Source: an uncultured Bacteroidales bacterium
GTDB taxonomy: Bacteria; Bacteroidota; Bacteroidia; Bacteroidales; Muribaculaceae
Direction: 5' to 3'
DNA length: 64,000 nt
Assembly: GCA_902800715.1 (NCBI GenBank)
Contig: CADCFN010000001.1
Span: 1-64,000, forward strand
Shown: positions 9,751 through 31,800 of the stretch, piece by piece
Position numbering within the stretch: position 1 is the stretch's first letter
Layout: the number at the start of each line of letters is the position of its first letter
Program-made: the position numbers and the translations under genes
Notes under the pieces: generated by a model
Database searches by the model: none
What the model saw: the letters and a program-made list of their open reading frames with translations, nothing else
What the model was told of the DNA's origin: nothing

Positions 9751-9919
9751 AATCAAATGTTTAGAATTAATAATCAGTTAATATAATCTTTGATTTAAAG
9801 ACTCGCCCACAAAGATAATAAGGATTTTTCAATTCTTATTACAAGCATGCCCATTTCCCATACATCCAACAAAAAAACGGCCGGCTGATTTCTCAGTCGG
9901 TCGCTTCGTGTTTTTGATG

Positions 9920-9991
9920 TGGTACCTCCGGGGATCGAACCAGGGACACGCGGATTTTCAGTCCACTGCTCTACCACTGAGCTAAGGTACC
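9920..9991 (-). tRNA. tRNA-Phe (GAA)
   Basis: 72 nt, CCA not encoded. The acceptor stem GGTACCT/AGGTACC is perfect, the anticodon loop is CTGAAAA (anticodon GAA), and the T-loop is TTCGATC. The T-stem is CCTGG/CCCGG, which leaves a T-C mismatch in the middle pair; Phe tRNAs normally have a Watson-Crick pair there. The trailer at 9866-9919 is an imperfect hairpin followed by seven T and serves as terminator. Confidence 0.92.
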
Positions 9992-10043
9992 TAAAATTAA
10001 AATTTCTTTTCTAACCAATGTTTATTATACCGCCAATACACTG

Positions 10044-16435: not shown

Positions 16436-18865
16436 ATGACCAATAAGTTTTCAAATAATATCATCACGCGCTACTGGCGACGCTTCAAGCAATGGTACAA
16501 GGGCTTGTACCGCGGTCGCCCGTGGTGGGTCAAGACCCTGGCAGCCATCGGGACGTTTATTGTCCTGTTCCTGCTCTATCTGCTCGCTGTGGATGTCAAC
16601 TTCCTGTGGCTCTTCGGCAAGTCGCCCAGCACCTACAGCATCATGCACCCGCGCAACCCCGAGGCGAGCTACCTGTACAGTGCCGACGGCAAAACCATCG
16701 GCAAGTACTATGATGAGAACCGCACGCCGGTGCCCTATGACTCAATCAACCCGCAGTTCTTCAGGGTGCTTATCGACACCGAGGACGAACGCTTCTACAG
16801 CCACCACGGCATCGACTTCAGCGGCCTGGGCGCTGCTGCCAAGGATATGGTGTTGCGCGGACGCCCCCGCGGTGCCAGCACCATCACCCAGCAACTGGTG
16901 AAGAACATGTTCCGCACGCGCAGCGACTACTCGACGGGACTGCTAGGCTATATCCCTGGCGTGAAGATGCTCATCATGAAGAGCAAGGAGTGGATTATCG
17001 CCACCAAACTGGAGATGTTCTACAGCAAGCAGGAAATCCTCGAGATGTACGCCAACACGGTGGACTTTGGCAGCAACGCCTTCGGCATCAAGACTGCTGC
17101 CAACACCTATTTCAAGACCACACCCCGCAACCTCAAACTCGAGGAGAGCGCCGTACTCGTCGGCCTGCTCAAGGCGACCAGCACCTACAACCCGCGCATC
17201 AATCCCAAGAACAGCCTGCGCCGCCGCAATGTGGTGCTGATGAACATGGTGGAGCACGGTGACTTGACCAAGGCACAATATGACTCGGTGTCAGCGTTGC
17301 CCATCGACCTGAAATACAACATCGAGAGCAACTATGATGGTGTGGCACCTTACTTCCGCGAGGCTGTGGCGCGCGAAATCGAGGACATTGCCAAAGAACA
17401 GGGCCTGAAACTGGACCTGGAGCGTGACGGACTCAAAATCTACACCACACTGGACTCCAAGATGCAGGAGTATGCCGAGCAAGCGGTGAGCGAGAAGATG
17501 AAGGTGGTACAGCAAAACTTCAAGAGCCACTGGGGCAACCAGGACTGCTGGCTTGACGACAACAACCAGCCCATTGCCAACTTTGTAGAGGACAAGGCAC
17601 GCAACACGCCCATCTATCACGAGTTGCTGGCACGTTACCCCAATGACCTGGACTCGGTGAACTACTACATGAACCAGCCCCACATGGTCCATCTGTTCGA
17701 CTACGAGAACGACTCTCTCTACATGGAAATGAGCTCGATGGACTCGGTACGCTATATGCTCCACTTCATGCACTGCGGCTTCATCGCCATGGAACCGAGC
17801 AACGGCCACATCAAGGCATGGGTGGGCGACGTGGACTTTGACACATGGAAATATGACAAGGTGCGAGCCAAGCATCAGCCAGGCTCGACGTTCAAGCTCT
17901 TTGTCTATGCCATGGCAATGGAGCGCGGACTGGTGCCCTGTGACCGACGACTCGACGAATACATCGACACACTTGTCTATAATGAGGAAAAGCAGGAAAT
18001 GGAGCCTTGGCGGCCGACCAACGCCAACGGCACCTTTACCGGAGCCGATATGACCCTGCGCGCCGCTTTTGCCCAGAGCATCAACAGCGTCACCGTGCGC
18101 GTGGCACGCGAGGTGGGCTTCAGCGAAATCGCCCAGCTGGCGCGCGACATGGGCATCGTCTCGCCGATGGACCCCAAACCCGCCCTGTCGCTGGGTGCCA
18201 GTGATGTGGACCTGATGGAGCTGGTCAATGCCTATTGCACCGTGGTCAACGACGGCATGCGTAACGACCCTGTCATCGTCACACGCATTGTGGACCGTGA
18301 CGGCAAGGAGATATACCGCGCGCCCCAACACCAGGAACGTGCCATGAGTTACCGCTCGGCATGGCTCATGCAGCAGATGCTCATGGCATGCCGCACCGAT
18401 GCCGGCGGCACAGCAATGGCTCTCAACGGCTATATCACGCGTCCGCTCTATGACGTGGACCTGGGTGGCAAGACGGGCACGAGCAACCGTCATGCCGACG
18501 CTTGGTTCGTTGCCGTTTCGCCAGGATTGGTGTGCGGCTCATGGGTAGGCGGTGAGTATCGCCAGATTCACTTCCGCTGGGGAGCCTTAGGCCAGGGTAG
18601 CCGCACGGCATTGCCCATCTGTGGCCGTTTCCTGCAGCTTGTGTTGAGCGACCCGCAGTACCAGAAATACCATCAGCGTTTCGCCCCAGCCAAGGAGCCA
18701 ATCGATGCTGCCCTGTATTCCGGCTGCTCGGCACTGGGCGAGGTCGAGGAGTTTGACTCGACAATGCTCGAGTTTGACGAGGACTCCTTGTTCGTTCCCC
18801 TTACCGACGATTTCAACCCCAACGAGAAACTCGAGGATCCCTCCTCCGTTCCCGACTCGGTGTGA
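16436..18865 (+). CDS. mrcA: Class A penicillin-binding protein (PBP1A type)
   Basis: Bifunctional cell-wall polymerase of 809 residues: one membrane anchor (about 33-52), a GT51 transglycosylase domain and a transpeptidase domain. The glycosyltransferase motifs are EDERFYSHHGID (116-127, with the catalytic Glu) and RGASTITQQLVKN (145-157). The transpeptidase motifs are STFK with Ser484, SIN at 548-550 and KTG at 679-681, so both active sites look intact. It polymerises lipid II and cross-links stem peptides outside the inner membrane. The acidic C-terminal tail (FDEDSLFVPLTDDFN) is typical of Bacteroidota members. The gene symbol follows the family and is not certain for this organism. Confidence 0.95.
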   Translation: MTNKFSNNIITRYWRRFKQWYKGLYRGRPWWVKTLAAIGTFIVLFLLYLLAVDVNFLWLFGKSPSTYSIMHPRNPEASYLYSADGKTIGKYYDENRTPVPYDSINPQFFRVLIDTEDERFYSHHGIDFSGLGAAAKDMVLRGRPRGASTITQQLVKNMFRTRSDYSTGLLGYIPGVKMLIMKSKEWIIATKLEMFYSKQEILEMYANTVDFGSNAFGIKTAANTYFKTTPRNLKLEESAVLVGLLKATSTYNPRINPKNSLRRRNVVLMNMVEHGDLTKAQYDSVSALPIDLKYNIESNYDGVAPYFREAVAREIEDIAKEQGLKLDLERDGLKIYTTLDSKMQEYAEQAVSEKMKVVQQNFKSHWGNQDCWLDDNNQPIANFVEDKARNTPIYHELLARYPNDLDSVNYYMNQPHMVHLFDYENDSLYMEMSSMDSVRYMLHFMHCGFIAMEPSNGHIKAWVGDVDFDTWKYDKVRAKHQPGSTFKLFVYAMAMERGLVPCDRRLDEYIDTLVYNEEKQEMEPWRPTNANGTFTGADMTLRAAFAQSINSVTVRVAREVGFSEIAQLARDMGIVSPMDPKPALSLGASDVDLMELVNAYCTVVNDGMRNDPVIVTRIVDRDGKEIYRAPQHQERAMSYRSAWLMQQMLMACRTDAGGTAMALNGYITRPLYDVDLGGKTGTSNRHADAWFVAVSPGLVCGSWVGGEYRQIHFRWGALGQGSRTALPICGRFLQLVLSDPQYQKYHQRFAPAKEPIDAALYSGCSALGEVEEFDSTMLEFDEDSLFVPLTDDFNPNEKLEDPSSVPDSV

Positions 18866-18903
18866 TTTTCGCACCACAATTTGTGACAAGTGTCAATTTT
18901 TTG

Positions 18904-18917
18904 GACAGTTTAGTGTC
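18904..18917. promoter_or_regulatory. Operator-like palindrome, copy 1
   Basis: GACAGT-TT-AGTGTC, one mismatch from the perfect dyad seen at 20515 and 24103. Flanking half-sites GTGTCAA (18890) and TTGACACTT (18925) give the same alternating pattern as the other copies. It lies in the spacer between PBP1A and the first gene of the LRR/dockerin array, about 190 bp upstream of the best promoter (19101). Confidence 0.6.
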
Positions 18918-19100
18918 TAAAAATTTGACACTTGACGTATTTTATGGCATAAAACCGCTGTTGTTTTTGATACAGGTACTATCTTAGGACTGGAAATCGA
19001 CATGAAATGGAGAGAAAAATTTCTTCAAATTGCCACAACCATAGAACCATGTGACATTGTCGCAATTTTTAAAATATTTCTGCAAAATTTCTTGATTTCA

Positions 19101-19132
19101 CTTGAAAATTAGAAATATTTATCATAAATTTG
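19101..19132 (+). promoter_or_regulatory. Promoter of the LRR/dockerin array leader
   Basis: CTTG (19101-19104), 20 nt, TAAATTTG (19125-19132): a good match to the Bacteroidota consensus. Transcription would enter the structured leader at 19195-19275 before the gene at 19354. Confidence 0.7.
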
Positions 19133-19194
19133 CAGTCAATTATTGCAGGTTGTTATTTGGATGATGATTTGCGATTGGCTACACTAATTATTAT

Positions 19195-19275
19195 AAAGCG
19201 TGTCTAAATGTTCCTTATCCTTGGGGTCTTGAGCGCCCCAAGGAGGGAATCAGACCAACGTCCTCACGCTTTTTT
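19195..19275 (+). ncRNA. Structured leader RNA ending in a terminator-like stem
   Basis: AAAGCGTG (19195-19202) pairs with CACGCTTT (19265-19272), followed by a T-run. Inside, TTCCTT pairs with AGGGAA and CCTTGGGG (19219-19226) with CCCCAAGG (19236-19243). A transcript from the promoter at 19101 would be about 135 nt if it ends here; read-through reaches the ATG at 19354. Either a small RNA or a transcription attenuator. It does not match SRP, 6S or tmRNA as I know them. Confidence 0.5.
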
Positions 19276-19353
19276 GTTTACTGGATTTCAATTCAATGAG
19301 GTCCTTAATCGTCGCTATTGTGGAGGGCCAACCAGCGGCATGAAGTAAGTATT

Positions 19354-20445
19354 ATGAAAAAGTATCTACGTTTAACCCTGATGTTGATGGCCGCATTCTC
19401 AACAACCATGAGTGCCCAAGAGATGGAACAAACCTTAGCACCAATCCTAGAAGAAACCTGGGATGCGCAGAATTGGCACAGTGCACAAACTGCTGACTAT
19501 GTTGATTACATTGTTACTATTTTCAGATCTGTCATTGTCACCAATGCTGACGAAATCGATGGCACCATCTATTATCGGCGTGATACAGGAAATGGCCTGA
19601 CGGAATGGCAGGAATACACGGGTAATCCGATTCTCGGCATGAACATGGGAGAAACAACTGTTGAAGTCTATGCTGTAGCCGAGGGTAAACTTCCGAGTGA
19701 AGTGGTCATGGGTAGCGCTGGGATTTATGACGATTTTATATACGCCGCTTGTATTGTTGATGGCATTCATTACTACTTAGATTATAGTGGGACAATGGAC
19801 ATATGGTACTTAGAATCTCCGTCCTCATATGTTTATGTTTGTGGCAGTGATGAGTCAGGGCTCACCTCCCAGCCCTATACTGGAGATATCATTATCCCAA
19901 GTGAAATGGTTTTCGAGGATGAAACCTATACCGTAGCCGGTATCCGCAATGCTGCGTTTGCTTGTACTGTCGGTTTCCATTGTGATATCACAAGCGTGGA
20001 GTTGCCAAGCACAATACTCCAGGTGGGTTGGTCTTCATTTGCCGGATGCATCAACTTGGAGCGCATGACCATCCATGCTGTGACACCACCCGATGCTGAT
20101 AACCTGTTTAGTGAAGACTATGTCTGGTTCGGCCGATATGATCAGGTCGGTTTTGATGGTAATATACTCTATGAGCAAGTGACGCTGTTTGTGCCGAATG
20201 AGTCTGTCGAGGATTACCGCGCCCATGAAGAGTGGGGCAAGTTCACCCACATCGTGCCGTTTATCGGGGCTGGCCCTGGCGACATCAATGGCGACGGCAA
20301 CATTGCTATCAGTGACGCTACCGAACTGGTCGACATGCTGCTTGTCGGAGAAGAGGTGCCCGCTTGGGCTGACGTCAACGGCGACGGCAATGTGTCCGTT
20401 GGTGACGTGACCGACCTGATTGACCGGTTGATGAACAATGACTGA
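19354..20445 (+). CDS. Secreted LRR_5/dockerin protein with a chitobiase-C-like domain (array gene 1)
   Basis: Exported protein of 363 residues starting at MKKYLRLTLMLMAAFSTTMSAQ (signal peptide); an upstream ATG at 19318 would bury the signal. Residues about 28-125 include the pattern GTIYYRRDTGN...VEVYAVAEGKLPSE, typical of the Ig-like domain at the C-terminus of chitobiase/hexosaminidase (CHB_HEX_C). A short LRR_5 region follows (ITSVELPSTILQVGWSSFAGC), and a two-loop dockerin ends it (GDINGDGNIAISDATELVDMLL, DVNGDGNVSVGDVTDLIDRLM). First of six same-strand array genes. Its 3' end from 20176 is nearly identical to that of the gene at 22180. Confidence 0.85.
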   Translation: MKKYLRLTLMLMAAFSTTMSAQEMEQTLAPILEETWDAQNWHSAQTADYVDYIVTIFRSVIVTNADEIDGTIYYRRDTGNGLTEWQEYTGNPILGMNMGETTVEVYAVAEGKLPSEVVMGSAGIYDDFIYAACIVDGIHYYLDYSGTMDIWYLESPSSYVYVCGSDESGLTSQPYTGDIIIPSEMVFEDETYTVAGIRNAAFACTVGFHCDITSVELPSTILQVGWSSFAGCINLERMTIHAVTPPDADNLFSEDYVWFGRYDQVGFDGNILYEQVTLFVPNESVEDYRAHEEWGKFTHIVPFIGAGPGDINGDGNIAISDATELVDMLLVGEEVPAWADVNGDGNVSVGDVTDLIDRLMNND

Positions 20446-20452
20446 TATCCCG

Positions 20453-20495
20453 AATCACACCATCAAGAGAGTACGCCTTTTGATGGTGTGATTTG
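20453..20495 (+). terminator. Terminator after array gene 1
   Basis: AATCACACCATCAA pairs with TTGATGGTGTGATT eight bases after the stop codon. The same hairpin follows array gene 3 (24041-24083). Confidence 0.75.
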
Positions 20496-20514
20496 CTATT
20501 GTGTCAAAGAATTG

Positions 20515-20528
20515 GACACTTTAGTGTC
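20515..20528. promoter_or_regulatory. Operator-like palindrome, copy 2
   Basis: Perfect dyad GACACT-TT-AGTGTC flanked by further half-sites (GTGTCAAAG on the left, TTACACTTTG on the right). Its centre lies about 70 bp upstream of the -7 box at 20592. Confidence 0.7.
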
Positions 20529-20566
20529 AAAAATTTTTACACTTTGCTTTTTTGAGGGGGCAAAAC

Positions 20567-20599
20567 AGTTGACAATACCTTTTCACCGTCCTAAATTTG
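20567..20599 (+). promoter_or_regulatory. Promoter of array gene 2
   Basis: AGTTG (20567-20571), 20 nt, TAAATTTG (20592-20599). The same boxes and spacing recur at 24156-24186. Confidence 0.75.
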
Positions 20600-20701
20600 C
20601 ATTACCGATTGTTGGGGTACCCATTCCCCACAACCTTAAAACGAAACAATAACTAATACTGAATTGGAACAAAATTATAGGTGTTAATAAAAACAGCCCG
20701 G

Positions 20702-20750
20702 TGATGTGTCCCAGCAAGAGCGGCACACATCTTGACGAAGCTGCCTTGCT
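20702..20750 (+). ncRNA. Conserved leader RNA fold, copy 1
   Basis: GATGTGT (20702-20708) can pair with ACACATC (20725-20731), or AGCAAG (20713-20718) with CTTGCT (20745-20750); the two helices interleave, so they compete. About 60 bases recur almost unchanged at 24302-24362. An earlier hairpin, GTTGGGG/CCCCACAAC, starts just after the promoter. It lies in the 5' leader of the gene at 20805, with no terminator in this copy. Confidence 0.5.
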
Positions 20751-20804
20751 AGAGATACACGGACCAAGAACAATTAAATAATTAACAATAAACTATTAAG
20801 AACA

Positions 20805-21659
20805 ATGAAGACGAAACTTCTCTTAACCCTGATGCTAATGCTGGCACTAAGCCTGACAGCCGAGCAAAACCCATACGTCTTTGAGGACGGTAACTTCTAT
20901 TACAAAATTACTGGAAGCAAGACTGTTTCTGTCACATGCGGTGGTGACTATGATGACCCAGAATCATATTTGGGTACCTATACGGGCTATTATCTTCCTG
21001 TGATTCCCGAAAATGTCACTTATAGAGGCGTCACCTATACCGTAACAGCTATTGATGATAATGCTTTCGCTTGGTCTAGATATATGGAATATGTTGAAAT
21101 TCCAAACACTGTCGAATGCATCGGTTTTCAGGCATTTAACGGCTGTAATGGACTTGAACGTGCTATCATCCCGTCATCAGTGACGAGAATTGTCTCTGCC
21201 GCTTATTCGTTCTGTTACGACCTCAAAGAGGTGACAATTGGCAGTTCACTCGAGAAGATTGGACAAAGCGCTTTCGGGTATTGTGACCGTTTGTCAACAG
21301 TGGTATGCGAGGCTCAGATTCCTCCAATTCTTGATGATGACGATACAAGCGTCTTGTATGGTGACTGCTTTAGCTCTTATGCATCTGCCACGCTTTATGT
21401 GCCATCTGAATCATTAGAGGCTTATCAAGAATCCGACATCTGGGGGCGCTTCTCAAGGATTCTCCCCATTGGCGGTATTGGTGGAACTGGTGATGTGGAT
21501 GGCAATGGTGTTATCGCTATCAGTGACGCCACCTTTCTCGTAGACCTCTTGCTTGATGGCAACAATAGTCTGCCCGCATTTTATGACGTCAACGGCGACG
21601 GCAATGTGACCGTTGGTGACGTAACCGACCTGATTGACCTGTTGATGAATAATAACTGA
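20805..21659 (+). CDS. Secreted LRR_5/dockerin protein (array gene 2)
   Basis: Exported protein of 284 residues with signal peptide MKTKLLLTLMLMLALSLTAE. A strand-rich N-terminal region opens YVFEDGNFYYKITGSKTVSV. Four or five LRR_5 units follow (VEIPNTVECIGFQAFNGC, AIIPSSVTRIVS, VTIGSSLEKIGQSAFGYC), then the linker ATLYVPSESLEAYQESDIW and a two-loop dockerin (GDVDGNGVIAISDATFLVDLLL, DVNGDGNVTVGDVTDLIDLLM). It has its own promoter and leader RNA. The dockerin-coding DNA is nearly identical to part of the gene at 22180. It is the shortest member of the array. Confidence 0.87.
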   Translation: MKTKLLLTLMLMLALSLTAEQNPYVFEDGNFYYKITGSKTVSVTCGGDYDDPESYLGTYTGYYLPVIPENVTYRGVTYTVTAIDDNAFAWSRYMEYVEIPNTVECIGFQAFNGCNGLERAIIPSSVTRIVSAAYSFCYDLKEVTIGSSLEKIGQSAFGYCDRLSTVVCEAQIPPILDDDDTSVLYGDCFSSYASATLYVPSESLEAYQESDIWGRFSRILPIGGIGGTGDVDGNGVIAISDATFLVDLLLDGNNSLPAFYDVNGDGNVTVGDVTDLIDLLMNNN

Positions 21660-22179
21660 TATCCTTATTAGCATAAAGTATCCGGAGCCTGTTATGCGGC
21701 ACGTCATAACGGTAATAACACGCTTCGTTATGTGAAGCTAGGTTATATGGGCATAATTGTTTGAGTTGCTTGAGTTATGTTTTATCGGTTGTGCCCGGGG
21801 TTGTGGCGAGAAAACAGTGACCGATGCGGCAGAAGGGGAAATTCAGAAGGCGGTTGCGGAACAATCGCCACGCCGAGCCTTCGATGGAAGGTAACGAGTA
21901 TTAATTGGGAAGGAATGGGTCTCCCCGCATGTGCTGTTGGTAGTTGGGCACCATTAACAGCTCCGTCAGACACAGGAGCCGCGCCTCAATCCACTCACTG
22001 ACGATGAGCTGTTTCAAGTAGAATCGTCAAATTATTTGACAATAATGAGAAAAGCAGTAAGACTACCGAAATTTATAGGAAATAAGTTACATAACGAATA
22101 AAGTTTATATACTTTTGTGTATTATAATTCAAATAGCTTTGTTAGGTTCATATAATAATCAATAAAAACTAAAAACACT
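21660..22179. other. Long intergenic spacer, no recognisable gene
   Basis: It contains a GTTATG/CATAAC hairpin near 21700, a GC-richer stretch (21780-22010) with short open frames that look like worn coding sequence but cannot be named, and a perfect 15-bp palindrome GTCAAATTATTTGAC near 22027-22041. TACTTTTG at 22110-22117 is a -7 box about 70 bp before the next start codon. Confidence 0.5.
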
Positions 22180-24033
22180 ATGAAACATTTTGTTTTGACT
22201 CAAATGATGTTGTTGATGTCAGTTGCCACTATTATGGGGCAAGAACCAGCCATTCCTACCCCAACACCTGAGATCCTCTGTGAGTATTACGATAGTTATG
22301 CAGCTATCTGGGTAGAGGGAGTGGGGGAACTTCATCTTTATTGCAATGAAGAGGAAGTTGAGAATCCATATTATATCGATTACGTTTATGGAGAGCAAAA
22401 TCTGTTTTTCACAGCGACTGCTCAAGCAGAGGGGTACCCAATCAGCGACATGGCAATCAAAGAGATAACAATACCTGCTATAGAAGTATTGCCTATAACC
22501 GCCACACCAAGTATAAATGTTGAGATTAGTCACTCAACTGCCATGCTTATCATATATGATGAGGATCCAGAAGCGACTCTTTACTATCGTGTGTCCTATT
22601 CCAATGACAATGGATTTGGTGATTGGAGCGAATGGATAGAATCTTTTGGTTGGGTTTATTTCACCGATCAAGGATATTATCTCATCGAAGCTTATGCTAT
22701 ATCTCCTGGAAAATTACAGAGCGAGATAGTTTGCACTAGTTTTGAGTTGAATACGCGCTACAAGACTGTTCCTCCTCTAGTTTATGCTCATCACGTTGAT
22801 CCCGAAAAAGGATTGGCGCTCCGTATTGTCGATGGCCTTATTGGAGAGAACCCGTTCAAGCCATCCTATATGGATGATGTCTATTATCATTATTCTGATG
22901 ATTGGGATCTTTATGAGGCTCCTGCCGATTCGTTCTTTTATAGGGTGAATAATGCTGGCGAATGGGTTCCTTCTCAAGAATATATCTACTTGAAAGATTA
23001 TGGTGATTACACTATCTCGGCTTATGCTTGCAATGATGATGCAGCAGATAGCGAAATTATTACTGCGACGGTGGAGTATGGCCCTACGGGACACACAAGC
23101 CAGAGTGGAAGCTACATTGTCAACGATGGCATAGTTTATGACATCACAGGAGATTCGACGCTCAAGGTCTCCACTTGTTATTTCAATGGCATGTTGTTCA
23201 TTAATTATCCCCTTATCACTCCTGATGCACCGTCAATCCACGTGAATATCCCGCCTACAATTCAAAGCAGAGGCCAAGACTATAAGGTAACCTCTTTGGG
23301 CGCTAATGGGGTTAAAGGCTCTGTCACCATACCGAGCACGATTAATCATATTGAATTGCCAGGTTATGATTATTTTTGGTCATTAGATTCTGTAACGATC
23401 GACGAAGGCAACCCTGTCTATGACTCTCGCGAGAATTGCAACGCCGTTATCCGGACAGCAGACAACACACTCATCATTGGGGGTAAGAATACTGTGATAC
23501 CCAGTACCGTTACTTGTATTGGTCGCTTCGCTTTTTATATGGTAGCGATTCCTCAAATAGTTATTCCCAATTCAGTGAAAACGATTGGTTCAATGGCTTT
23601 TGGCTCTTGTGAATGTTTGAAAAACGTGACAATAGGCAATTCGGTCGATACAATTGGATATGAAGCATTTGGCGGATGTGAAAACATAGAGAGAATAATT
23701 ACTCACGACATGATTCCTCCAGTGGCTAACACGCTGTTTTATTACGATGAGCCCTATTATCAAGTGACGCTGTTTGTGCCGAATGAGTCTGTCGAGGATT
23801 ACCGTGCTCATGAGGAATGGGGCAAGTTCACCCACATCGTGCCGTTTATCGGGGCCGGCCCTGGCGACATCAATGGTGACGGCAACATTGCTATCAGTGA
23901 CGCCACCTTCCTCGTAGACCTCTTGCTTGATGGCAACAATAGTTTGCCCGCATTTTATGACGTCAACGGCGACGGCAATGTGACCGTTGGTGACGTGACC
24001 GACCTGATTGACCAGTTGATGAACAATAACTGA
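22180..24033 (+). CDS. Secreted LRR_5/dockerin protein with chitobiase-C-like domains (array gene 3)
   Basis: Exported protein of 617 residues with signal peptide MKHFVLTQMMLLMSVATIMG. Residues about 25-320 hold several CHB_HEX_C-like Ig domains (EATLYYRVSYSNDNG, YLIEAYAISPGKLQSE, FFYRVNNAGEW, DYTISAYACND). The LRR_5 part follows, with one YDSRENCNAVIRTADNTLI insert, then a dockerin. The last ~90 codons are mosaic: QVTLFVPNESVEDYRAH through IAISDAT copies array gene 1, FLVDLLLDGNN through DVTDLID copies array gene 2, and the DNA across the stop codon resembles gene 1 again. This indicates gene conversion among neighbours. Confidence 0.87.
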   Translation: MKHFVLTQMMLLMSVATIMGQEPAIPTPTPEILCEYYDSYAAIWVEGVGELHLYCNEEEVENPYYIDYVYGEQNLFFTATAQAEGYPISDMAIKEITIPAIEVLPITATPSINVEISHSTAMLIIYDEDPEATLYYRVSYSNDNGFGDWSEWIESFGWVYFTDQGYYLIEAYAISPGKLQSEIVCTSFELNTRYKTVPPLVYAHHVDPEKGLALRIVDGLIGENPFKPSYMDDVYYHYSDDWDLYEAPADSFFYRVNNAGEWVPSQEYIYLKDYGDYTISAYACNDDAADSEIITATVEYGPTGHTSQSGSYIVNDGIVYDITGDSTLKVSTCYFNGMLFINYPLITPDAPSIHVNIPPTIQSRGQDYKVTSLGANGVKGSVTIPSTINHIELPGYDYFWSLDSVTIDEGNPVYDSRENCNAVIRTADNTLIIGGKNTVIPSTVTCIGRFAFYMVAIPQIVIPNSVKTIGSMAFGSCECLKNVTIGNSVDTIGYEAFGGCENIERIITHDMIPPVANTLFYYDEPYYQVTLFVPNESVEDYRAHEEWGKFTHIVPFIGAGPGDINGDGNIAISDATFLVDLLLDGNNSLPAFYDVNGDGNVTVGDVTDLIDQLMNNN

Positions 24034-24040
24034 TATCCTG

Positions 24041-24083
24041 AATCACACCATCAAAAGACTTGCTCTCTAGATGGTGTGATTTG
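24041..24083 (+). terminator. Terminator after array gene 3
   Basis: AATCACACCATC pairs with GATGGTGTGATT, the same hairpin as at 20453-20495. Confidence 0.75.
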
Positions 24084-24102
24084 CCAAAGTGTCAAAAAAT
24101 TG

Positions 24103-24116
24103 GACACTTTAGTGTC
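24103..24116. promoter_or_regulatory. Operator-like palindrome, copy 3
   Basis: Perfect dyad GACACT-TT-AGTGTC with the same flanking half-sites and the same distance (about 70 bp) to the -7 box as copy 2. Confidence 0.7.
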
Positions 24117-24154
24117 AAAAAATTTTACACTTTGCATTTTTGGAGGTAAAAAAA

Positions 24155-24186
24155 GTTGACAATACTTTTTCTCCGTCCTAAATTTG
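24155..24186 (+). promoter_or_regulatory. Promoter of array gene 4 leader
   Basis: GTTG (24155-24158), 20 nt, TAAATTTG (24179-24186), identical in boxes and spacing to the promoter at 20567. Confidence 0.75.
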
Positions 24187-24302
24187 CATTACCGACAGTT
24201 GGGGTATCCATTCCCCACGACCTTAAAACTAAACCATAAAACAAATTGAATTGGAAAAAAATATTGATGTTAATAAAAAGTGCAAAGATTTTTCAGCCTA
24301 AT

Positions 24303-24350
24303 GATGTGTCCCAGCAAGAACGGCACACATCCTGACGAAGCTGCCTTGCT
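24303..24350 (+). ncRNA. Conserved leader RNA fold, copy 2
   Basis: Same interleaved helices as 20702-20750: GATGTGT with ACACATC, competing with AGCAAG and CTTGCT. Here the leader continues into a long terminator (24367-24474), so the whole transcript from 24193 could be a ~280-nt RNA ending before the gene. Confidence 0.5.
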
Positions 24351-24366
24351 AGAGACACACAAGCTA

Positions 24367-24474
24367 AGAGCAATGCTAGGAACAACTGAATTAACGGATA
24401 ATGATGTGACGTCCGATTGGTGATATTCAAACGGACAACTGAAAGAAACCGTTTCCTAGCATTGCTCTTTTTTT
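24367..24474 (+). terminator. Long-stem terminator inside the leader of array gene 4
   Basis: AGAGCAATGCTAGGAA (24367-24382) pairs perfectly with its complement at 24453-24468, followed by seven T. A smaller GTCCG/CGGAC helix sits in the loop. It lies 47 bp before the ATG at 24521, so transcription from 24193 would stop here unless the stem is prevented from forming. The equivalent leader at 20702 lacks it. Confidence 0.75.
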
Positions 24475-24520
24475 AGTATCATATCAGCAGACAATTATTA
24501 ACCATTTAATATTCAGAACT

Positions 24521-26164
24521 ATGATAAGAAAAAAACTATTACTGCTCATGCTGATGGCCGCTGCAACAGCGACCATGAGCGCCTATAACTTTGTGATGGA
24601 CGGCATCTATTATAACATCAACGCCGACAGCACCTCGGTGAGTGTGACTTATAAAGGCTCTTCTTCGACAGGTAACACTTACAGCGGTCAAGTAACAATT
24701 CCCGCCGAGGTGTCCTATAACGGGATGACCTATGCTGTCACTTCTATTGGTGGAGATGCCTTCAATAAATGTACTGGACTGACTCGTGTTGATTTACCTA
24801 ACTCGATTTCCTCAATTGGAAGGAACGCGTTTCATGGATGCACAGCATTAAACCACATCAACATCCCTAACTCTGTCACTTTCATTGGCGGGGATGCATT
24901 TATGAGTTGCAGCTCTCTAACTGAACTTTTTATTCCAGCTTCGGTACAAACTATAGAGTTAATGTCATTCTCCTATTGCTATGGTTTAACAAGCATTGTG
25001 GTTGATGAGAACAACTTGTACTATGACTCCCGAGATAATTGCAATGCCATTATTGGTAAAGCAAACTGTGTGTTATTGGCAGCTTGTGTCAACACCGTGA
25101 TACCCAACTCGGTGAAACGTCTTGCCGCAGGGACGTTCAACGGATTCACTTGGCTGACTGAGGTCAATCTTCCTGATTCCCTCGAGTACATTGGTGAGAG
25201 TGCTTTTCGCGATTGCACTGGATTGTCTTATATTGAAATTCCTAATAAAGTGACAGAAATTGCTGATTGTGCCTTTGCTGGTTGTACAGGATTGACCGAA
25301 GTTGAGCTTCCTGAATCACTCCAATACCTTGGAGGATGTGTTTTCATGGACTGCCCTTGTTTGACCAGTCTGTTTATACCTGCTAATGTTACTCGGATAC
25401 TTGGTGGTCTTACCACTCGCGACTACAATATAACCAATATCGTTGTTGATCCGAGAAACACGAAATATGATTCGCGTGACAATTGCAATGCCATTATAGA
25501 GAAAAAATACCTAGGACGGTTCACTAATTTAATTGAAGGCTGTAATAATTCTTTCATTCCTGAGGGTGTGACTCATATAGGTTCCATGGCGTTTGCCTAT
25601 TGTGATAAGATAACTGAGATTGAGTTTCCAAATTCATTGATAAACATTGATGCTGGTGCCTTTTATGAGTGTTCTGCCCTTACAAGTGTTTATATTCCTG
25701 AAGGAGTTCGACAAATCGGCCTTGATGCTTTCAGGAACTGTACCAACTTGATTTCCATTTCATTACCAAGCACGATGAACAACATAGGCACTTTTAACAT
25801 AGGCACTTATTGCTTTTATGGTTGTACTAATTTGGAGGACGTCATCTGTTTTTCTCTATATCCCCCTCGATATGAAATGTACGGATTCTTTGAGTCGAGT
25901 ACCTATAGCAATGCGAGGCTTCATGTGCCTGAAGAGGCTATCGAAGCCTACAAGAATGCCTCTTATTGGCGTAACTTTATCACTATTTTACCCATTGGTG
26001 ACATCAATGGCGACGGCAATGTCGCTATCAGTGATGTAACGGGCTTGATTGATCTGTTGCTTAGCGGTGAAGAGCTACCAGCTTGGGGAGACTGCAATGG
26101 AGACGGCAAGGTGACCGTCGCCGACGCCACCACCATCATCGACAAGCTCATGGAGATGAATTAA
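24521..26164 (+). CDS. Secreted LRR_5/dockerin protein (array gene 4)
   Basis: Exported protein of 547 residues with signal peptide MIRKKLLLLMLMAAATATMSA. The N-terminal motif YNFVMDGIYYNINADSTSVSVTY is shared with the proteins at 57175 and 59526. About twelve LRR_5 units follow (VDLPNSISSIGRNAFHGC and similar), with two YDSRDNCNAII inserts (near 170 and 315). The linker ARLHVPEEAIEAYKNASYW leads to a two-loop dockerin (GDINGDGNVAISDVTGLIDLLL, DCNGDGKVTVADATTIIDKLM). Its promoter leader contains a terminator, so expression may depend on read-through. The gene at 26207 follows after 42 bp without a promoter or terminator, so the two probably form an operon. Confidence 0.88.
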   Translation: MIRKKLLLLMLMAAATATMSAYNFVMDGIYYNINADSTSVSVTYKGSSSTGNTYSGQVTIPAEVSYNGMTYAVTSIGGDAFNKCTGLTRVDLPNSISSIGRNAFHGCTALNHINIPNSVTFIGGDAFMSCSSLTELFIPASVQTIELMSFSYCYGLTSIVVDENNLYYDSRDNCNAIIGKANCVLLAACVNTVIPNSVKRLAAGTFNGFTWLTEVNLPDSLEYIGESAFRDCTGLSYIEIPNKVTEIADCAFAGCTGLTEVELPESLQYLGGCVFMDCPCLTSLFIPANVTRILGGLTTRDYNITNIVVDPRNTKYDSRDNCNAIIEKKYLGRFTNLIEGCNNSFIPEGVTHIGSMAFAYCDKITEIEFPNSLINIDAGAFYECSALTSVYIPEGVRQIGLDAFRNCTNLISISLPSTMNNIGTFNIGTYCFYGCTNLEDVICFSLYPPRYEMYGFFESSTYSNARLHVPEEAIEAYKNASYWRNFITILPIGDINGDGNVAISDVTGLIDLLLSGEELPAWGDCNGDGKVTVADATTIIDKLMEMN

Positions 26165-26206: not shown

Positions 26207-28825
26207 ATGAAAAAGCTACTACTAACACTACTGATGCTAGTCATGGCCACCGCGGCCATGAGTGCCCAGGACGAACTGGAGCAGACGCCTGATCCGGTGT
26301 TTACCATCGAAGAGGGAGAAAACTATGTGACCGTTCACATCGTTTGTGAGAACGCCTTCATCTACGTCTTTGCCGACGGAGTAGAGATGGGGACGGGGTA
26401 TTCTGAGTTCGACCTCACGTTTGCCCCGCAGGAAGAGGAACAGGTAAGAGAGGTTATGGCCTATGCTCAAGCCGACGGGATGGCACCATCCAACACCGTC
26501 AGTACTTATGTCGTTGTTCCAGCACTTCCCCAGTACACCTCAGCACCTTATATTTATTTTATAGAGGAAGAAGATCAAATGACTGTTGTCATCGAGAACT
26601 CAGATGATTCCAATGCCACCATATATTATCGGTACTTTTTGGAATCTGAAGGTAACTCCAGCAATTACTATTCGGATTATAATGGGCCCTTTAGTATCCC
26701 AAAACAAAGTTTTGAGGAGCATCTCACCATCGAAGCCTTTGCAATAGCAGATGGCAAACTCGAGAGTGAACACGTTTGGTCTGATGTCTATATTGCACCT
26801 GCTAATCCACCAGAACCCACCTCAGCGCCTTATATTGAATGTGTTGATGAAGGGTATCAGATGACAGTTTTGATCGAGAACTCAGATGATCCCGACGCCA
26901 CCATCTATTATCGGTGTATTTTCAATTATGAAGATGACCCTGGCAATGAATTTATGGTGTATGATGGTCCTATTTCATTCCAGAGAGGTGATTATTACTA
27001 CTTCGTAATTATCGAAGCCTATGCGATTGCCGAAGGCAAACTTGAGAGTGAACACGTTTTGATTGAGCTCCCTATCGAACCGTATGATTATCCTGATCCT
27101 GATCCATACCAAGTATCCTGCTATAGCTTCTCGGATGGTGGTATTTACTACAAGATTTTGAGTGATTCCACTGTAGGAGTAACTAGGCAATACATGGACT
27201 ACCGCCACTATAATTACTGGGTAGGTGACGTTTTGTGCTCGTTCGGTAAAGAATATCCGTGTTACAGCGGCAGCATAACCGTTCCCGCCACTGTTAACAA
27301 CTACGGCAAGACTTACACAGTAACTGCAATCGTGGATGAAGCATTCATGAATGACAATGTAACCAGTGTGACACTACCCTCCACGATTACCGAGATTGGC
27401 AATTACGCATTTGCCAATTCAGATATCAACGGCATTACCTTACCCAATTCGCTCACCACAATCGGCACCGGCGCATTTACCGGTTGCGCTTACATCACTG
27501 ATGTGAATATCCCTGCCAGCGTTACCACCCTGGGTGATTACGCCTACAGCCGTTGCGAGACTTTGAACAATGTGGCACTCCATGGCTCATTATCTGCCAT
27601 CGGCAAGTATTCGTTCTCCAGTTGCCAGAATCTTACCCAAGTTACCATCCCGGCAACAGTGACCTCGATTGGCGCTAATGCATTCTATAGCTGCAAGAAC
27701 CTGACTGACGTATCATTGTCCAATGGGCTCGAAACGATTGGCAATGCTGCTTTCATGGGCTGTTCGTCACTGACCGAGATTTCGTTGCCCGCAACGGTGA
27801 CCACCATCGGCAATTCAGTATTCTCCCAGTGCAACAATTTGGTCCAATTGACACTGGGCAACGCGTTGACCTCTATCGGCAGCTCGGCATTCTCCCGTTG
27901 CACCAGCCTGACGGATATCGTTATTCCTGAGGGTGTAACCACTATCGGCAATTCGGCATTCTATGGCTGTAAGGCCCTGGTATCAGCATCGTTGCCTAAC
28001 GCACTCGAAGCCATCGACTATTCCACATTCCTGGGATGTGCCGCTCTGTCACAGGTCAACTGGCCCACTTCGCTCACCAGCATCAACTATGATGCCTTCA
28101 ACGGCTGCAAGAGCCTGCCTGACGTGACGATACCCGCCGCACTCACCACTATTGCCGCAAGAGCATTTGACGACTGTCCGTCCTTGACATCAATCCAGGT
28201 TGAACAAGGCAATACGGTCTTTGATTCGCGCGAGAACTGCAATGCCATCATCGAGACGGGCAGCAACACACTGATTTTGGGCTGCAAGAACACTGTCGTT
28301 CCGAGTACCATCACCGCCATTGGTGACCATGCGTTCTACAACTGCGCCGACTTGACCGAAGTCACCATTCCCGACGGCGTGACACGCATCGGCGAATATG
28401 CCTTCTACAACTGTAAGCGCTTGACCGAAATCACAATTCCGGCTACAGTCGACACCATCTGCAGCGATGCGTTCTACACCTGCGTCGGCTTGAAGACCGT
28501 TACCTGCTTGGCGCCGCTGCCTCCTGTCGTTTATTACAGGACATTCATCTCATGCTATGACGCCACCTTGCGTGTAGAACGGGAATCCATTGGAGATTAC
28601 AAGGCAGCCGAGTACTGGAACCAGTTCAGGTATATCCTCTCGACGACCGATCCTGATGTTGGCGACATTAATGGTGACGGTGTGATTACCATTGCCGACG
28701 TGACCGTCTTGATTGACATGATGATGAATGGTGAGGAGTTGCCTGCCTATGCCGACTTCAACGGTGACGGCACTGTAAGCATCGCCGACGTCACCGCCCT
28801 CATTGATTTCATGTTGGGCTTATAA
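26207..28825 (+). CDS. Secreted LRR_5/dockerin protein with chitobiase-C-like domains (array gene 5)
   Basis: Exported protein of 872 residues, signal peptide MKKLLLTLLMLVMATAAMSAQ. Residues about 25-290 contain three CHB_HEX_C-like units; two are close copies of each other (SAPYI...NSDD..ATIYYR...IEAFAIADGKLESEHV). Then come some fifteen LRR_5 repeats of the LTEISLPATVTTIGNSVFSQC type, one FDSRENCNAIIETGSNTLI insert, and a two-loop dockerin (GDINGDGVITIADVTVLIDMMM, DFNGDGTVSIADVTALIDFML). The tandem Ig domains suggest a stalk that lifts the LRR region off the surface. Probably co-transcribed with genes 4 and 6 (gaps of 42 and 71 bp). Confidence 0.88.
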   Translation: MKKLLLTLLMLVMATAAMSAQDELEQTPDPVFTIEEGENYVTVHIVCENAFIYVFADGVEMGTGYSEFDLTFAPQEEEQVREVMAYAQADGMAPSNTVSTYVVVPALPQYTSAPYIYFIEEEDQMTVVIENSDDSNATIYYRYFLESEGNSSNYYSDYNGPFSIPKQSFEEHLTIEAFAIADGKLESEHVWSDVYIAPANPPEPTSAPYIECVDEGYQMTVLIENSDDPDATIYYRCIFNYEDDPGNEFMVYDGPISFQRGDYYYFVIIEAYAIAEGKLESEHVLIELPIEPYDYPDPDPYQVSCYSFSDGGIYYKILSDSTVGVTRQYMDYRHYNYWVGDVLCSFGKEYPCYSGSITVPATVNNYGKTYTVTAIVDEAFMNDNVTSVTLPSTITEIGNYAFANSDINGITLPNSLTTIGTGAFTGCAYITDVNIPASVTTLGDYAYSRCETLNNVALHGSLSAIGKYSFSSCQNLTQVTIPATVTSIGANAFYSCKNLTDVSLSNGLETIGNAAFMGCSSLTEISLPATVTTIGNSVFSQCNNLVQLTLGNALTSIGSSAFSRCTSLTDIVIPEGVTTIGNSAFYGCKALVSASLPNALEAIDYSTFLGCAALSQVNWPTSLTSINYDAFNGCKSLPDVTIPAALTTIAARAFDDCPSLTSIQVEQGNTVFDSRENCNAIIETGSNTLILGCKNTVVPSTITAIGDHAFYNCADLTEVTIPDGVTRIGEYAFYNCKRLTEITIPATVDTICSDAFYTCVGLKTVTCLAPLPPVVYYRTFISCYDATLRVERESIGDYKAAEYWNQFRYILSTTDPDVGDINGDGVITIADVTVLIDMMMNGEELPAYADFNGDGTVSIADVTALIDFMLGL

Positions 28826-28896: not shown

Positions 28897-31800
28897 ATGA
28901 AGAAGTTCATTTATAGCCTATTGATGCTGCTGGCTGTCTCTTTCACGGCCCAGGCGCAGTGGAACCAGTATTGGCACAATGGCATCCATTATGAGATTCT
29001 CAATAATTCAGAGGTCAAGGTAGTTGCTGTGGACGATGACAGCTATAGCGGCGATATCACAATTCCTGCTACGGCTCACATTCTGGTCGAGTTCTCCAAT
29101 TCCCATGCCATCGGCGAGCCTTACCAGCGTTCATTCATTGTCACCGAAATCGACGAGAATGCCTTCAATGGCTGCACGGGACTGACAAGTATTTCCTTGC
29201 CAAACACCATCATGGTCATCGGCAAAAACGCATTCTATGGCTGTTCGGGACTGACGAGTGTCACCATCCCCAATGGTGTCACCACGATTGGAGCATCGGC
29301 TTTCGCCGAGTGTACTAACCTGAGGAGCGTCATCATGCCCAACTCGGTCAACTCGATGGATTGGAACGTGTTCTACGGTTGCTCGGCATTGACCAGCGTA
29401 ACGCTGTCCAATAACCTGAATACCCTCAAGGGCACCTTCAGCGGTTGCACGGCATTGGCAAGCGTCAATATCCCTGCTGGAGTAAATACGCTGGACGGCA
29501 CCTTTAACGGATGTACAAGTCTGGCAACGGTAAAACTGCCCATGGCTGTATCCTATATCGGTGAAAACACCTTTAACGGTTGCTCTTCTTTAACTGAAAT
29601 CCACCTGCCCAACCCTGTGACTTATATTGGAAAACTGGCGTTTGCTTACACTGGGTTAACTTCAGTGGAACTGCCTGATGCCGTATCTTATATCGGAGAA
29701 AACGCATTCTATGGCTGCACGGGGCTGAGGTCAGTAACAACACGCGCCACCAATCCACCCCTGATGGCGAATGTTGACGGTTTCTTAAGCGAGACTTACG
29801 GCATGGCATCGCTCACGGTTCCCAAGATGTCGCTGACCGCCTATCTGACCGCTGACTGGTGGAGCATGTTCGAGAACATCACTGGCAATGCCGCGTTAAA
29901 TAACCATTACGACTTTGAGAAAAACGGCATCTACTATACTGTCACCGGCAGCAACACGGTAGAGGTGACCTTTAAGGACAGGAACTATAACAGCTACAGC
30001 GGCATGGTGACCGTACCCGGCACGGTGTCCATGAATGGTGTGACCTATAGCGTGACAGGAGTGGGCAACTCGGCTTTCCGTGGCTGCTCGGGCCTGACGG
30101 CGGTAAACCTGCCCGCCAGCGTGACCTCAATCGGGAAACAAGCGTTCTATGGTGCTGGTATAACTGATATCGCGATTCCCGAGGCGGTCACCCTTATCGG
30201 AGACAGTGCATATTGTTCGTGCTCGGGTCTTGCGAATCTTGCCAACCTGACGATTCCCAAGAATGTCGCGGTTATCGGCACTGATGCCTTTAAAGGTGTC
30301 GGGACGCAGTCGCTCACGTGGAATGCGCGAGAATGCTGGTCTTGCGGCAGTATTTATACCCTAAACATCAGTCAGGTGACTATCGGCAACGAGGTGACGG
30401 TGATACCTGAAAAATTTGTGATTAATTCACAAATCACATCTGTTGATTTGCCCAATTCCTTGACAACAATCGGTAACGAAGCATTTAAGTCAACCTATAA
30501 GTTGACTAGCCTGACGATTCCTGAGAATGTTACTGAATTCGGATATTATGCCTTCGAAAACAGCGGAGTGGAAACACTCACCTGGAATGCCCGTGAGTGC
30601 AGGAGTGTGCTGCCATACAAAGATGGATACTACTACTATGATTCCTTTTATTGGAATTCGCCATTTCGTAGTGTCAGCAATCTGACTATTGGTGACCAAG
30701 TGCGCATATTGCCCTATGGCTTTGTTGCTAATTCCAATATTACTACGGTAACTATACCCAATTCCGTCGAGATAATTGCAGGCGGTGCTTTCTATTATTG
30801 CAATAATCTCACTGATGTCATTATCCCGGATGCTGTTGAGGAAATCGGAGCTTATGCTTTCACTTATAACCAAAGTATGACGAGTGCCGTTATCGGCAAG
30901 GGAGTGAAACGCCTTGGCGAGATGGCTTTTTACGGTTCCAAACAACTGCAGTCACTCACCTGGAATGCGGTACGCTGTGAAACATTGGGATATTTTGACG
31001 AACGCCACTATAGCTACGATGCGTGCAGTTATGGCCAATTAACCCAGATAACGATTGGAAATGAGGTAGAGAAGATACCCAATTATTTTGCTTATCAGTT
31101 CCCAATCACATCTATTGAAATCCCCGCTTCGGTTAAGGAAATCGGTTATTATGCATTCGCTGGCTGCGGAGGATTGACAGACATCAACCTTCCTGCTTCA
31201 CTCAAGACCATCGGCGCTGGAGCATTTAGTAATTGTAATGGCTTGACCGAGGTCAAGATACCAGGGTCGGTTGACACGATTAGCAGTGGCGCTTTCAGTA
31301 ACTGCGCAGCATTGATGTATGTTTCTATCCCCGCCTCGGTCAAATCGCTGCAAGGATTCAACAATTGCCCCAACCTGATTGAGGCTTCAATCAGCGCACT
31401 CAACATCGGCAGCAATGCATTCGCCTATTGCGATAAGTTGAGTGACCTCACCCTGTCGGCGCCGCTACAAAGCATCGCCGGAGGCGCTTTCACTCAGTGC
31501 TATACCCTTTCCAGTCTGACCATACCCAATACAGTGACCTCAATACAGAAGCAGTCGTTCAGTGGCTGCTCGGGGCTGAGATCGATTGTCGTGGAAGATG
31601 ATAATCCGGTATATGATTCCCGTGACAACTGCAACGCCGTCATTAAGACTGAAAACGACAGCTTGGTACTGATTTGTAAGAATACAACGCTGCCATCAGG
31701 AATCACTAAAATTGACGACTATGCTTTCTATAACTCCGGAATCACAAGCATGGTTATTCCACCGTCGGTCAAGTCCATCGGTAAATATGCGTTTGCTAAT

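Follow-up and report, generated by a model that had tools for sequence, protein, structure and literature searches.

The stretch of DNA analyzed in this study, referred to as "the window", comprises 64,000 nucleotides (positions 1 to 64,000 of contig CADCFN010000001.1, assembly GCA_902800715.1) of an uncultured Muribaculaceae bacterium of the order Bacteroidales. It carries an array of genes for dockerin-tailed proteins and BspA-type leucine-rich repeat (BspA-LRR) proteins, in which an earlier reading of the same DNA (the original prediction) had pointed to a palindrome shared by three intergenic regions. Here we describe the operator-like element to which this palindrome belongs, its promoters and genes, and a two-component system that probably acts through it. 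All window features given below lie on the plus strand.

The palindrome, a 14-bp dyad GACACTTTAGTGTC, is perfect at 20515 and 24103 and has one mismatch at 18904; all three copies are intergenic, and their positions and mismatch counts are confirmed. Within the window the dyad is weakly enriched (6 matches with at most 2 mismatches against 2.28 expected, with 1 of 100 shuffles giving 6). Its flanks repeat the same half-sites, yielding a 42-bp element, GTGTC-N9-GACAC-TTTA-GTGTC-N9-(G/T)ACAC, which consists of two 19-bp palindromes (GTGTC-N9-GACAC, the N9 being A or T) with A/T tracts inside and a 23-bp period. The flanking half-sites described originally do recur, but the 14-bp dyad is not the unit; it is the junction between the paired 19-bp palindromes. 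Operator 1 (18890..18931; GTGTC N9 GACAG / GTGTC N9 GACAC, 23-bp period), operator 2 (20501..20542) and operator 3 (24089..24130), the latter two likewise tandem 19-bp palindromes, were matched by the promoter profile R1 (described below) with E values of 4.4e-12, 1.8e-17 and 1.3e-20, respectively. Throughout the genome to which the window belongs, an extended 28-bp pattern (at most 3 mismatches) gave 10 strand-wise matches and its reversed control gave none. A single 19-bp palindrome was dropped as a search unit, being uninformative at one mismatch (105 matches per strand against 85 for the control).

Promoters follow operators 2 and 3 at 20569..20599 (TTGACA at 20569-20574, -7 box TAAATTTG at 20592-20599) and 24156..24186 (TTGACA at 24156-24161, TAAATTTG at 24179-24186), 49 and 48 bp from the respective operator, and the near -7 box TATCTTAG (18980..18987) stands exactly 48 bp past operator 1; these values bear out the conserved palindrome-to-promoter distance noted before. 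The predicted targets are a dockerin-tailed protein (19354..20445; Pfam PF00404) and two BspA-LRR/dockerin proteins (20805..21659, Pfam PF13306 and PF00404; 24521..26164, by Pfam). The genes at 26207-28825 and 28897-33273 follow the last of these after short gaps and may be co-transcribed with it. Another BspA-LRR/dockerin gene by Pfam (22180..24033), starting about 520 bp past 21659, had no site of its own with profile R1.

When the cassettes of operators 2 and 3 were aligned from the end of one dockerin gene to the next leader, they were 86% identical outside gaps (292 of 340 columns; about 360 alignment columns overall). Both are full cassettes in which terminator hairpin (about 20451-20495, z -7.9, and 24040-24082, z -4.6), site, TTGACA, TAAATTTG and leader follow in the order first described, but a GTTGGGG/CCCCAAC hairpin, also described as part of the cassette, is not supported, as the segments holding it folded no better than shuffles (z -0.84 and -0.13). 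The 86-nt segments holding the leader fold gave z values of -2.9 and -1.6. The two similar cassettes are also a local duplication; their similarity alone therefore proves nothing, and for this reason the evidence was taken from unrelated loci. Their identity would fit a recent duplication or a mobile repeat without regulatory meaning, but the same site with the same spacing precedes unrelated genes at dozens of loci, other genera included, and within the genus it tracks one regulator (see below). This contradicts a duplication-only origin, which we regard as a negligible prospect even though the window's cassettes are duplicates.

The site was sought in 101 genomes of the window's genus and in a family sample of 397 genomes, 84 of them in that genus and the rest in 29 other genera. 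A 20-base pattern (at most 2 mismatches) matched 22 of the 101 genus genomes, with 1 match for the reversed control. The stricter 42-bp pattern matched 21 of the 397 family genomes, all within the window's genus and none in the other 29 genera (control 0), and a general pattern matched 36, of which 27 are among the 84 genus genomes and 9 among the other 313 (reversed control 0 of 397). A gapped pattern, TGTC-N10-ACA-N48..50-TANNTTTG, was too loose, matching 47 of the 101 genomes, many of them without the regulator, and profile R1 was used instead. The scan of the genome and its relatives proposed originally thus found a site that is non-random and conserved in relatives.

Regions of up to 20 kb were fetched around most listed sites, giving 74 loci. 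With as many as 3 mismatches allowed, 72 of them contained 89 unique sites in all (none in L086 or L212; the window's own three sites are outside the 89). Of these 89 sites, 82 have a -7 box, TAnnTT[T/C]G, that begins 47-49 bp beyond one end of the site (47 bp, n=17; 48 bp, n=60; 49 bp, n=5), while 7 have no box there; about 0.6 sites would be expected by chance, judging from 33 boxes among 28,302 other flank positions. Removal of near-duplicate promoters (more than 85% alike) left 77 of the 82, from which profile R1 was built. The aligned profile of the 82 promoters reads site, TTTT, AAAAA, TTG and then TAAnTTTGCA. The 82 were chosen by the -7 box, and the TTG found about 20 bp upstream of TAnnTTTG played no part in the selection.

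Near some of the sites lies a gene for a 175-amino-acid response regulator, composed of a receiver and a Fis-type helix-turn-helix (HTH) domain, together with a histidine kinase gene. In the regulators of three relatives the receiver (PF00072) was found with E values of 2e-22 to 2e-21 and the output domain (HTH_8/Fis, PF02954) with 2e-17 to 4e-16, and HATPase_c was found in the adjoining gene of two relatives. In line with the original statement that the window holds no regulator gene, Pfam detected no DNA-binding regulator domain in the 36 open reading frames (ORFs) scanned there, smaller or overlapping ones lying outside the scan. The candidate in the same genome lies on another contig (C17:30978-31502), is 90% identical to the query, and shows the motifs DD, LLDM, TAY and TKPW, which we take to be receiver and phosphoacceptor motifs. 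Genes adjoining this regulator and its Xylanibacter ruminicola counterpart match kinase models, AtoS and CreC among them, with scores well under the models' cut-offs.

Since the receiver and the Fis-type HTH are NtrC-like, with 2qr3 as the best solved receiver match, the site might be taken for an enhancer of sigma-54 promoters bound by an NtrC-like protein. However, sigma-54 activation needs an AAA+ domain, and Pfam found the receiver and HTH only in the 175-residue regulator, without AAA+; moreover, the promoter element associated with the site is of the TAnnTTTG type, TTG ... TAAnTTTG at fixed spacing. We therefore consider this explanation very improbable. A short receiver plus Fis-type HTH without AAA+ is also the make-up of ActR/PrrA/RegA (NF033791), the match to which spans residues 6-168 of 175. 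The family label is not earned, as the regulator of the window's genome scored 64 bits and that of X. ruminicola 76 bits against a curated cut-off of 250, and a further difference is the rigid TGTC-N9-GACA pair at fixed promoter spacing found here.

Occurrence of the regulator and of the site coincide closely within the genus. The regulator (E <=1e-30) is present in 28 of the 101 genomes, the window's own included, and the 20-base and 42-bp patterns combined found the site in 26 of these 28 (not in G059 and G081), compared with 1 of the 73 regulator-negative genomes (G011, where the match is inside an ORF). With the general pattern, the 84 sampled genus genomes have the site in 25 of 25 with the regulator versus 2 of 59 without it (Fisher p 2e-19), and profile R1 matches per genus genome, both strands counted, number 4-31 if the regulator is present and 0-5 if it is not.

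A scan of genome contigs for the regulator gave a best 80 of named loci, 19 at 80-93% identity and 61 at 68-80%, and 69 of these 80 have a site (at most 3 mismatches) no more than 400 bp upstream of the regulator gene. Most of the 61 are titled Prevotella, Prevotellaceae or Xylanibacter ruminicola. With up to 2 mismatches allowed, the 61 loci (L150-L210) yielded 87 sites, and every one has its -7 box 47-49 bp away; the junction between the palindromes, that is, the 14-bp dyad, is not kept. By their N-termini, inspected by eye, the genes faced by these sites are mostly TolC-, adaptor-, ATPase- or FtsX-type permease-like, and three exporter genes of the X. ruminicola locus L190 were checked by NCBIfam. 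In 8 Prevotella-type genomes the general pattern occurs at 1-4 places each, 19 in total, and by hand 15 of the 19 were placed on the same contig as the regulator, at most about 16 kb away.

Most likely, with a probability of roughly 0.83, the palindromes serve as operator for a two-component system consisting of this short response regulator and the adjoining histidine kinase. The site, the spacing, the genomic co-occurrence and the adjacency at the loci are read from the sequences, and from them we infer binding, activation and phosphorylation. The pairing of site and regulator, both within the genus and in the Prevotella-type loci, is strongly suggested by these comparisons. As co-occurrence and adjacency are indirect, and any gene limited to the same lineage would track the site as well, a different DNA-binding protein co-inherited with the two-component locus might recognize the site instead. 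In both the genus and the Prevotella/Xylanibacter loci, however, the DNA-binding protein beside the site is this regulator (neighbors judged by eye at a few loci), and we consider such a protein unlikely.

What the system might control can be seen from profile R1. In the window's genome it gave 19 rows at E <=2e-6, namely 13 promoter-oriented matches and 6 opposite-strand readings of the same palindromes. Three of the 13 are in the window; the other ten precede a DUF4932 protein, two FtsX-type permeases (one checked by NCBIfam) and seven targets assigned by eye: three secreted proteins, an ATP-binding cassette (ABC) exporter operon, and one gene each for a BspA-LRR protein, a dockerin protein and an M16 protease. 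In front of a protein resembling a C10 protease the match is weak (E 0.003). As the dockerin/BspA genes at 2378, 8308, 48638, 57175 and 59526 of the window had no R1 match at E <=0.05, the genome-wide set of about 13 promoters covers only part of the array. The proposal of one dimeric factor for the array is well supported by the comparison as regards the factor, which remains a predicted one, but only part of the array has sites.

Seventy-eight proteins facing sites were compared with 78 drawn at random from 462 proteins of the same loci, the length rules differing (targets at least 100 amino acids with no upper limit; controls 150-1300). Dockerins (21 targets vs 7 controls, p 0.006) and C10 proteases (8 vs 0, p 0.006) were enriched, as were response regulators (9 vs 0, p 0.003), a count that reflects adjacency. 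No significant difference was found for LRR_5 (12 vs 6), M16 (3 vs 5) or S8 (5 vs 0, p 0.06). The enrichment before dockerin/BspA genes expected at the outset was seen for dockerin and was not significant for LRR_5. No match to PF00963, the cohesin partner that a dockerin-cohesin cellulosome would need, was found in the window's genome, which is 88.9% complete, though dockerin-tailed proteins are many there. Beside the regulator in L087 (8547-9296), L096 (6578-9201) and L102 (8372-11207) lie secreted proteins, several with dockerin-like ends, that by eye have common GVGGxxxxPIDPRPIKPG-like stretches.

Several observations weigh against the operator assignment. In the same family outside the genus, 26 genomes have a regulator relative (E <=1e-40), but the general pattern detected the site in no more than 3 of them, including 3 of 13 at 62-69% regulator identity, and 6 genomes there have the site without a regulator relative; the operator of the regulator's relatives outside the genus may differ. 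Within the genus, the regulator-negative genomes G020, G029, G054, G088 and G091 (62-92% complete) have R1 matches below 1e-5, G020 and G088 (88% and 74% complete) have one site each and no regulator at the cut-off, and shared descent may inflate the co-occurrence. Among the best 80 named loci, 11 have no site near the regulator. Sites adjoining the regulator mostly face the divergent gene by the 48-bp rule, and in the window's genome no site lies directly 5' of the regulator gene, so autoregulation is unsupported. Finally, a hydrophobic-N-terminus heuristic was not clearly higher in targets (48 of 78) than in controls (38 of 78).

If the operator assignment is correct, the phosphorylated regulator would bind as two dimers, one on each 19-bp palindrome. 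With the operator end 48 bp 5' of the TAnnTTTG box, and with the -33/-7 numbering of Bacteroides promoters, the dyads would be centered near -70 and -93, a class I position, from which the regulator would reach across spacer tracts rich in T and A to recruit housekeeping RNA polymerase. A parallel is offered by Fis of E. coli at rrnB P1, whose Fis-type HTH acts near -71 in class I fashion; here the position is estimated from the sequence, and a receiver protein would act on paired specific palindromes. Activation through the site is likely, and the genes for surface proteins, proteases and exporters are probably switched on together. Repression through the site is unlikely, though slightly less remote than recognition by another protein. 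In its favor, most Prevotella-type loci have, on the side of the regulator, a -7 box beginning just 7-8 bp from the site (59-60 bp in others), a distance at which a bound protein would cover the -33 region. At the other promoters, however, the fixed distance of about 48 bp with A/T tracts between is the usual place of an upstream activator, and the two roles can coexist.

Under the activation model, targets in the genus would be exported proteins (dockerin/BspA proteins and C10 proteases), FtsX-type exporters and a structured RNA, and those in Prevotella/Xylanibacter-type loci mainly the adjoining TolC, adaptor and FtsX genes. Exporter genes beside a regulator recall MacAB-TolC/darobactin-type exporters with two-component genes. 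The ATPase of the window's genome is DarD-like (293 bits) and the X. ruminicola adaptor and TolC-family protein score 212 (DarC-like) and 147, all under the curated NCBIfam cut-offs of 375, 450 and 225, respectively, although the adaptor passes TIGR01730 (151 vs 94.9); another difference is that, in the window's genus, surface-protein and protease genes have the site in front of them too. In L211 (314-3437) and L190 (4812-9772) the exporters encoded close to the regulator resemble darobactin-export/MacB-type ABC systems, below curated cut-offs. PorX/PorY of Porphyromonas gingivalis is likewise a Bacteroidales two-component system reported to govern secretion genes; PorX is a response regulator of a type differing from the one described here.

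The leader fold of about 60 nt noted originally belongs to a conserved RNA. The window holds a leader or small-RNA element at 24260..24401, with core GACGAAGCTGCCTTGCTA (model R2, E 7.5e-25), and a degenerate copy without a terminator found at 20674..20801 (E 3.2e-17), both of them training sequences of R2. In the interval from the promoter to gene 24521, a long-range terminator-like hairpin with a T7 run (24368..24474; arms 24368-24382 and 24453-24467) was found, the fold of 24360-24480 having a z of -6.56. Of 85 promoters, 22 have a 12-base core, GCTGCCTTGCTA (at most 2 mismatches), in the 500 nt downstream, 0 have it upstream and 2 have it on the reverse strand; judged by position, a few of these 22 occurrences appear to be due to chance. 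Across 79 sources (1.13 Mb) R2 detected 16 copies, including the 12 on which it was trained, and by position all 16 are downstream of a regulated promoter, a link that is partly by construction because the loci were fetched for having sites. In the best 80 named regulator loci R2 gave 4 matches, all in the 80-93% group and two of them places already counted under other names; the 61 Prevotella-type loci had none.

RNAs in which core GACGAAGCTGCCTTGCTA is preceded by a variable hairpin and followed by a covarying long-range hairpin occur in the window and in L092, L095, L239, L242, L245, L256, L273 and L278. A T run follows the long-range hairpin at the end of several copies and is absent from others. 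In 14 of the 16 copies the arms pair at 86.3% of positions and show 18 double-sided changes; the corresponding figures for shuffles are 77.5% and 7.4, and none of 500 shuffles attained either of the observed ones. This count omits the 20674 copy of the window, which has no terminator, and L096, which has an extra base in one arm, and retains L282, L102 and L093, whose arms are less like the others; choosing the arms by hand favors pairing. RNAalifold on a MAFFT alignment of the leaders gave 3 pairs only, 0 with a double-sided change. A leader-peptide reading of the conserved core was dropped, as by eye the frame is not kept in all copies. The leader of an ABC exporter promoter contains a small membrane ORF (METQACIVTITM...) in L085 (about 9876-9999, minus strand) and in L009 (about 1300-1390), and core GCTGCCTTGCTA comes after this ORF.

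The gene following the 16 copies has a dockerin-like C-terminus by eye in 8 cases, is on the opposite strand in 7 and is unclear in 1. A stretch similar to 24368-24474 (87% identity) precedes a dockerin gene in L092, and its position and that of the hairpin before gene 24521 suggest attenuation or a separate short transcript. Tentatively, and at somewhat less than even odds, the regulator might switch on surface-protein genes together with a new structured RNA family, forming a two-component/small-RNA switch in one rumen lineage. Such RNAs would be about 250-290 nt long with their own terminators, some standing alone and some just upstream of dockerin genes, where they could be attenuators, and the switch would have arisen by enlarging an ancestral exporter regulon. 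GacA-RsmY/Z and LuxO-Qrr are known cases of response regulators that switch on small RNAs; the RNA here differs in that an Rfam search of 18800-24600 at E <=1 gave no match on the leader copies, its two plant-type microRNA matches, both at 18869-18952, being below the gathering score.

The earlier interpretation is, overall, partly supported. Searches of the open-licence PubMed Central literature listed no publication that, by title and abstract beginning, was recognized as dealing with this regulator, site or RNA, and the regulon and operator may be new ones for a known kind of regulator, as the RNA may be new. With no Rfam match in the searched stretch, the linked RNA may be a new regulatory RNA. 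As the 48-bp geometry is rigid and holds across genera, upstream activation at TAnnTTTG promoters is open to a direct test, and cultured X. ruminicola, where site and spacing are the same, offers a species in which to test the pairing. For the exported-protein program of uncultured rumen Bacteroidales, these results pair a regulator with its likely operator and a predicted regulon.

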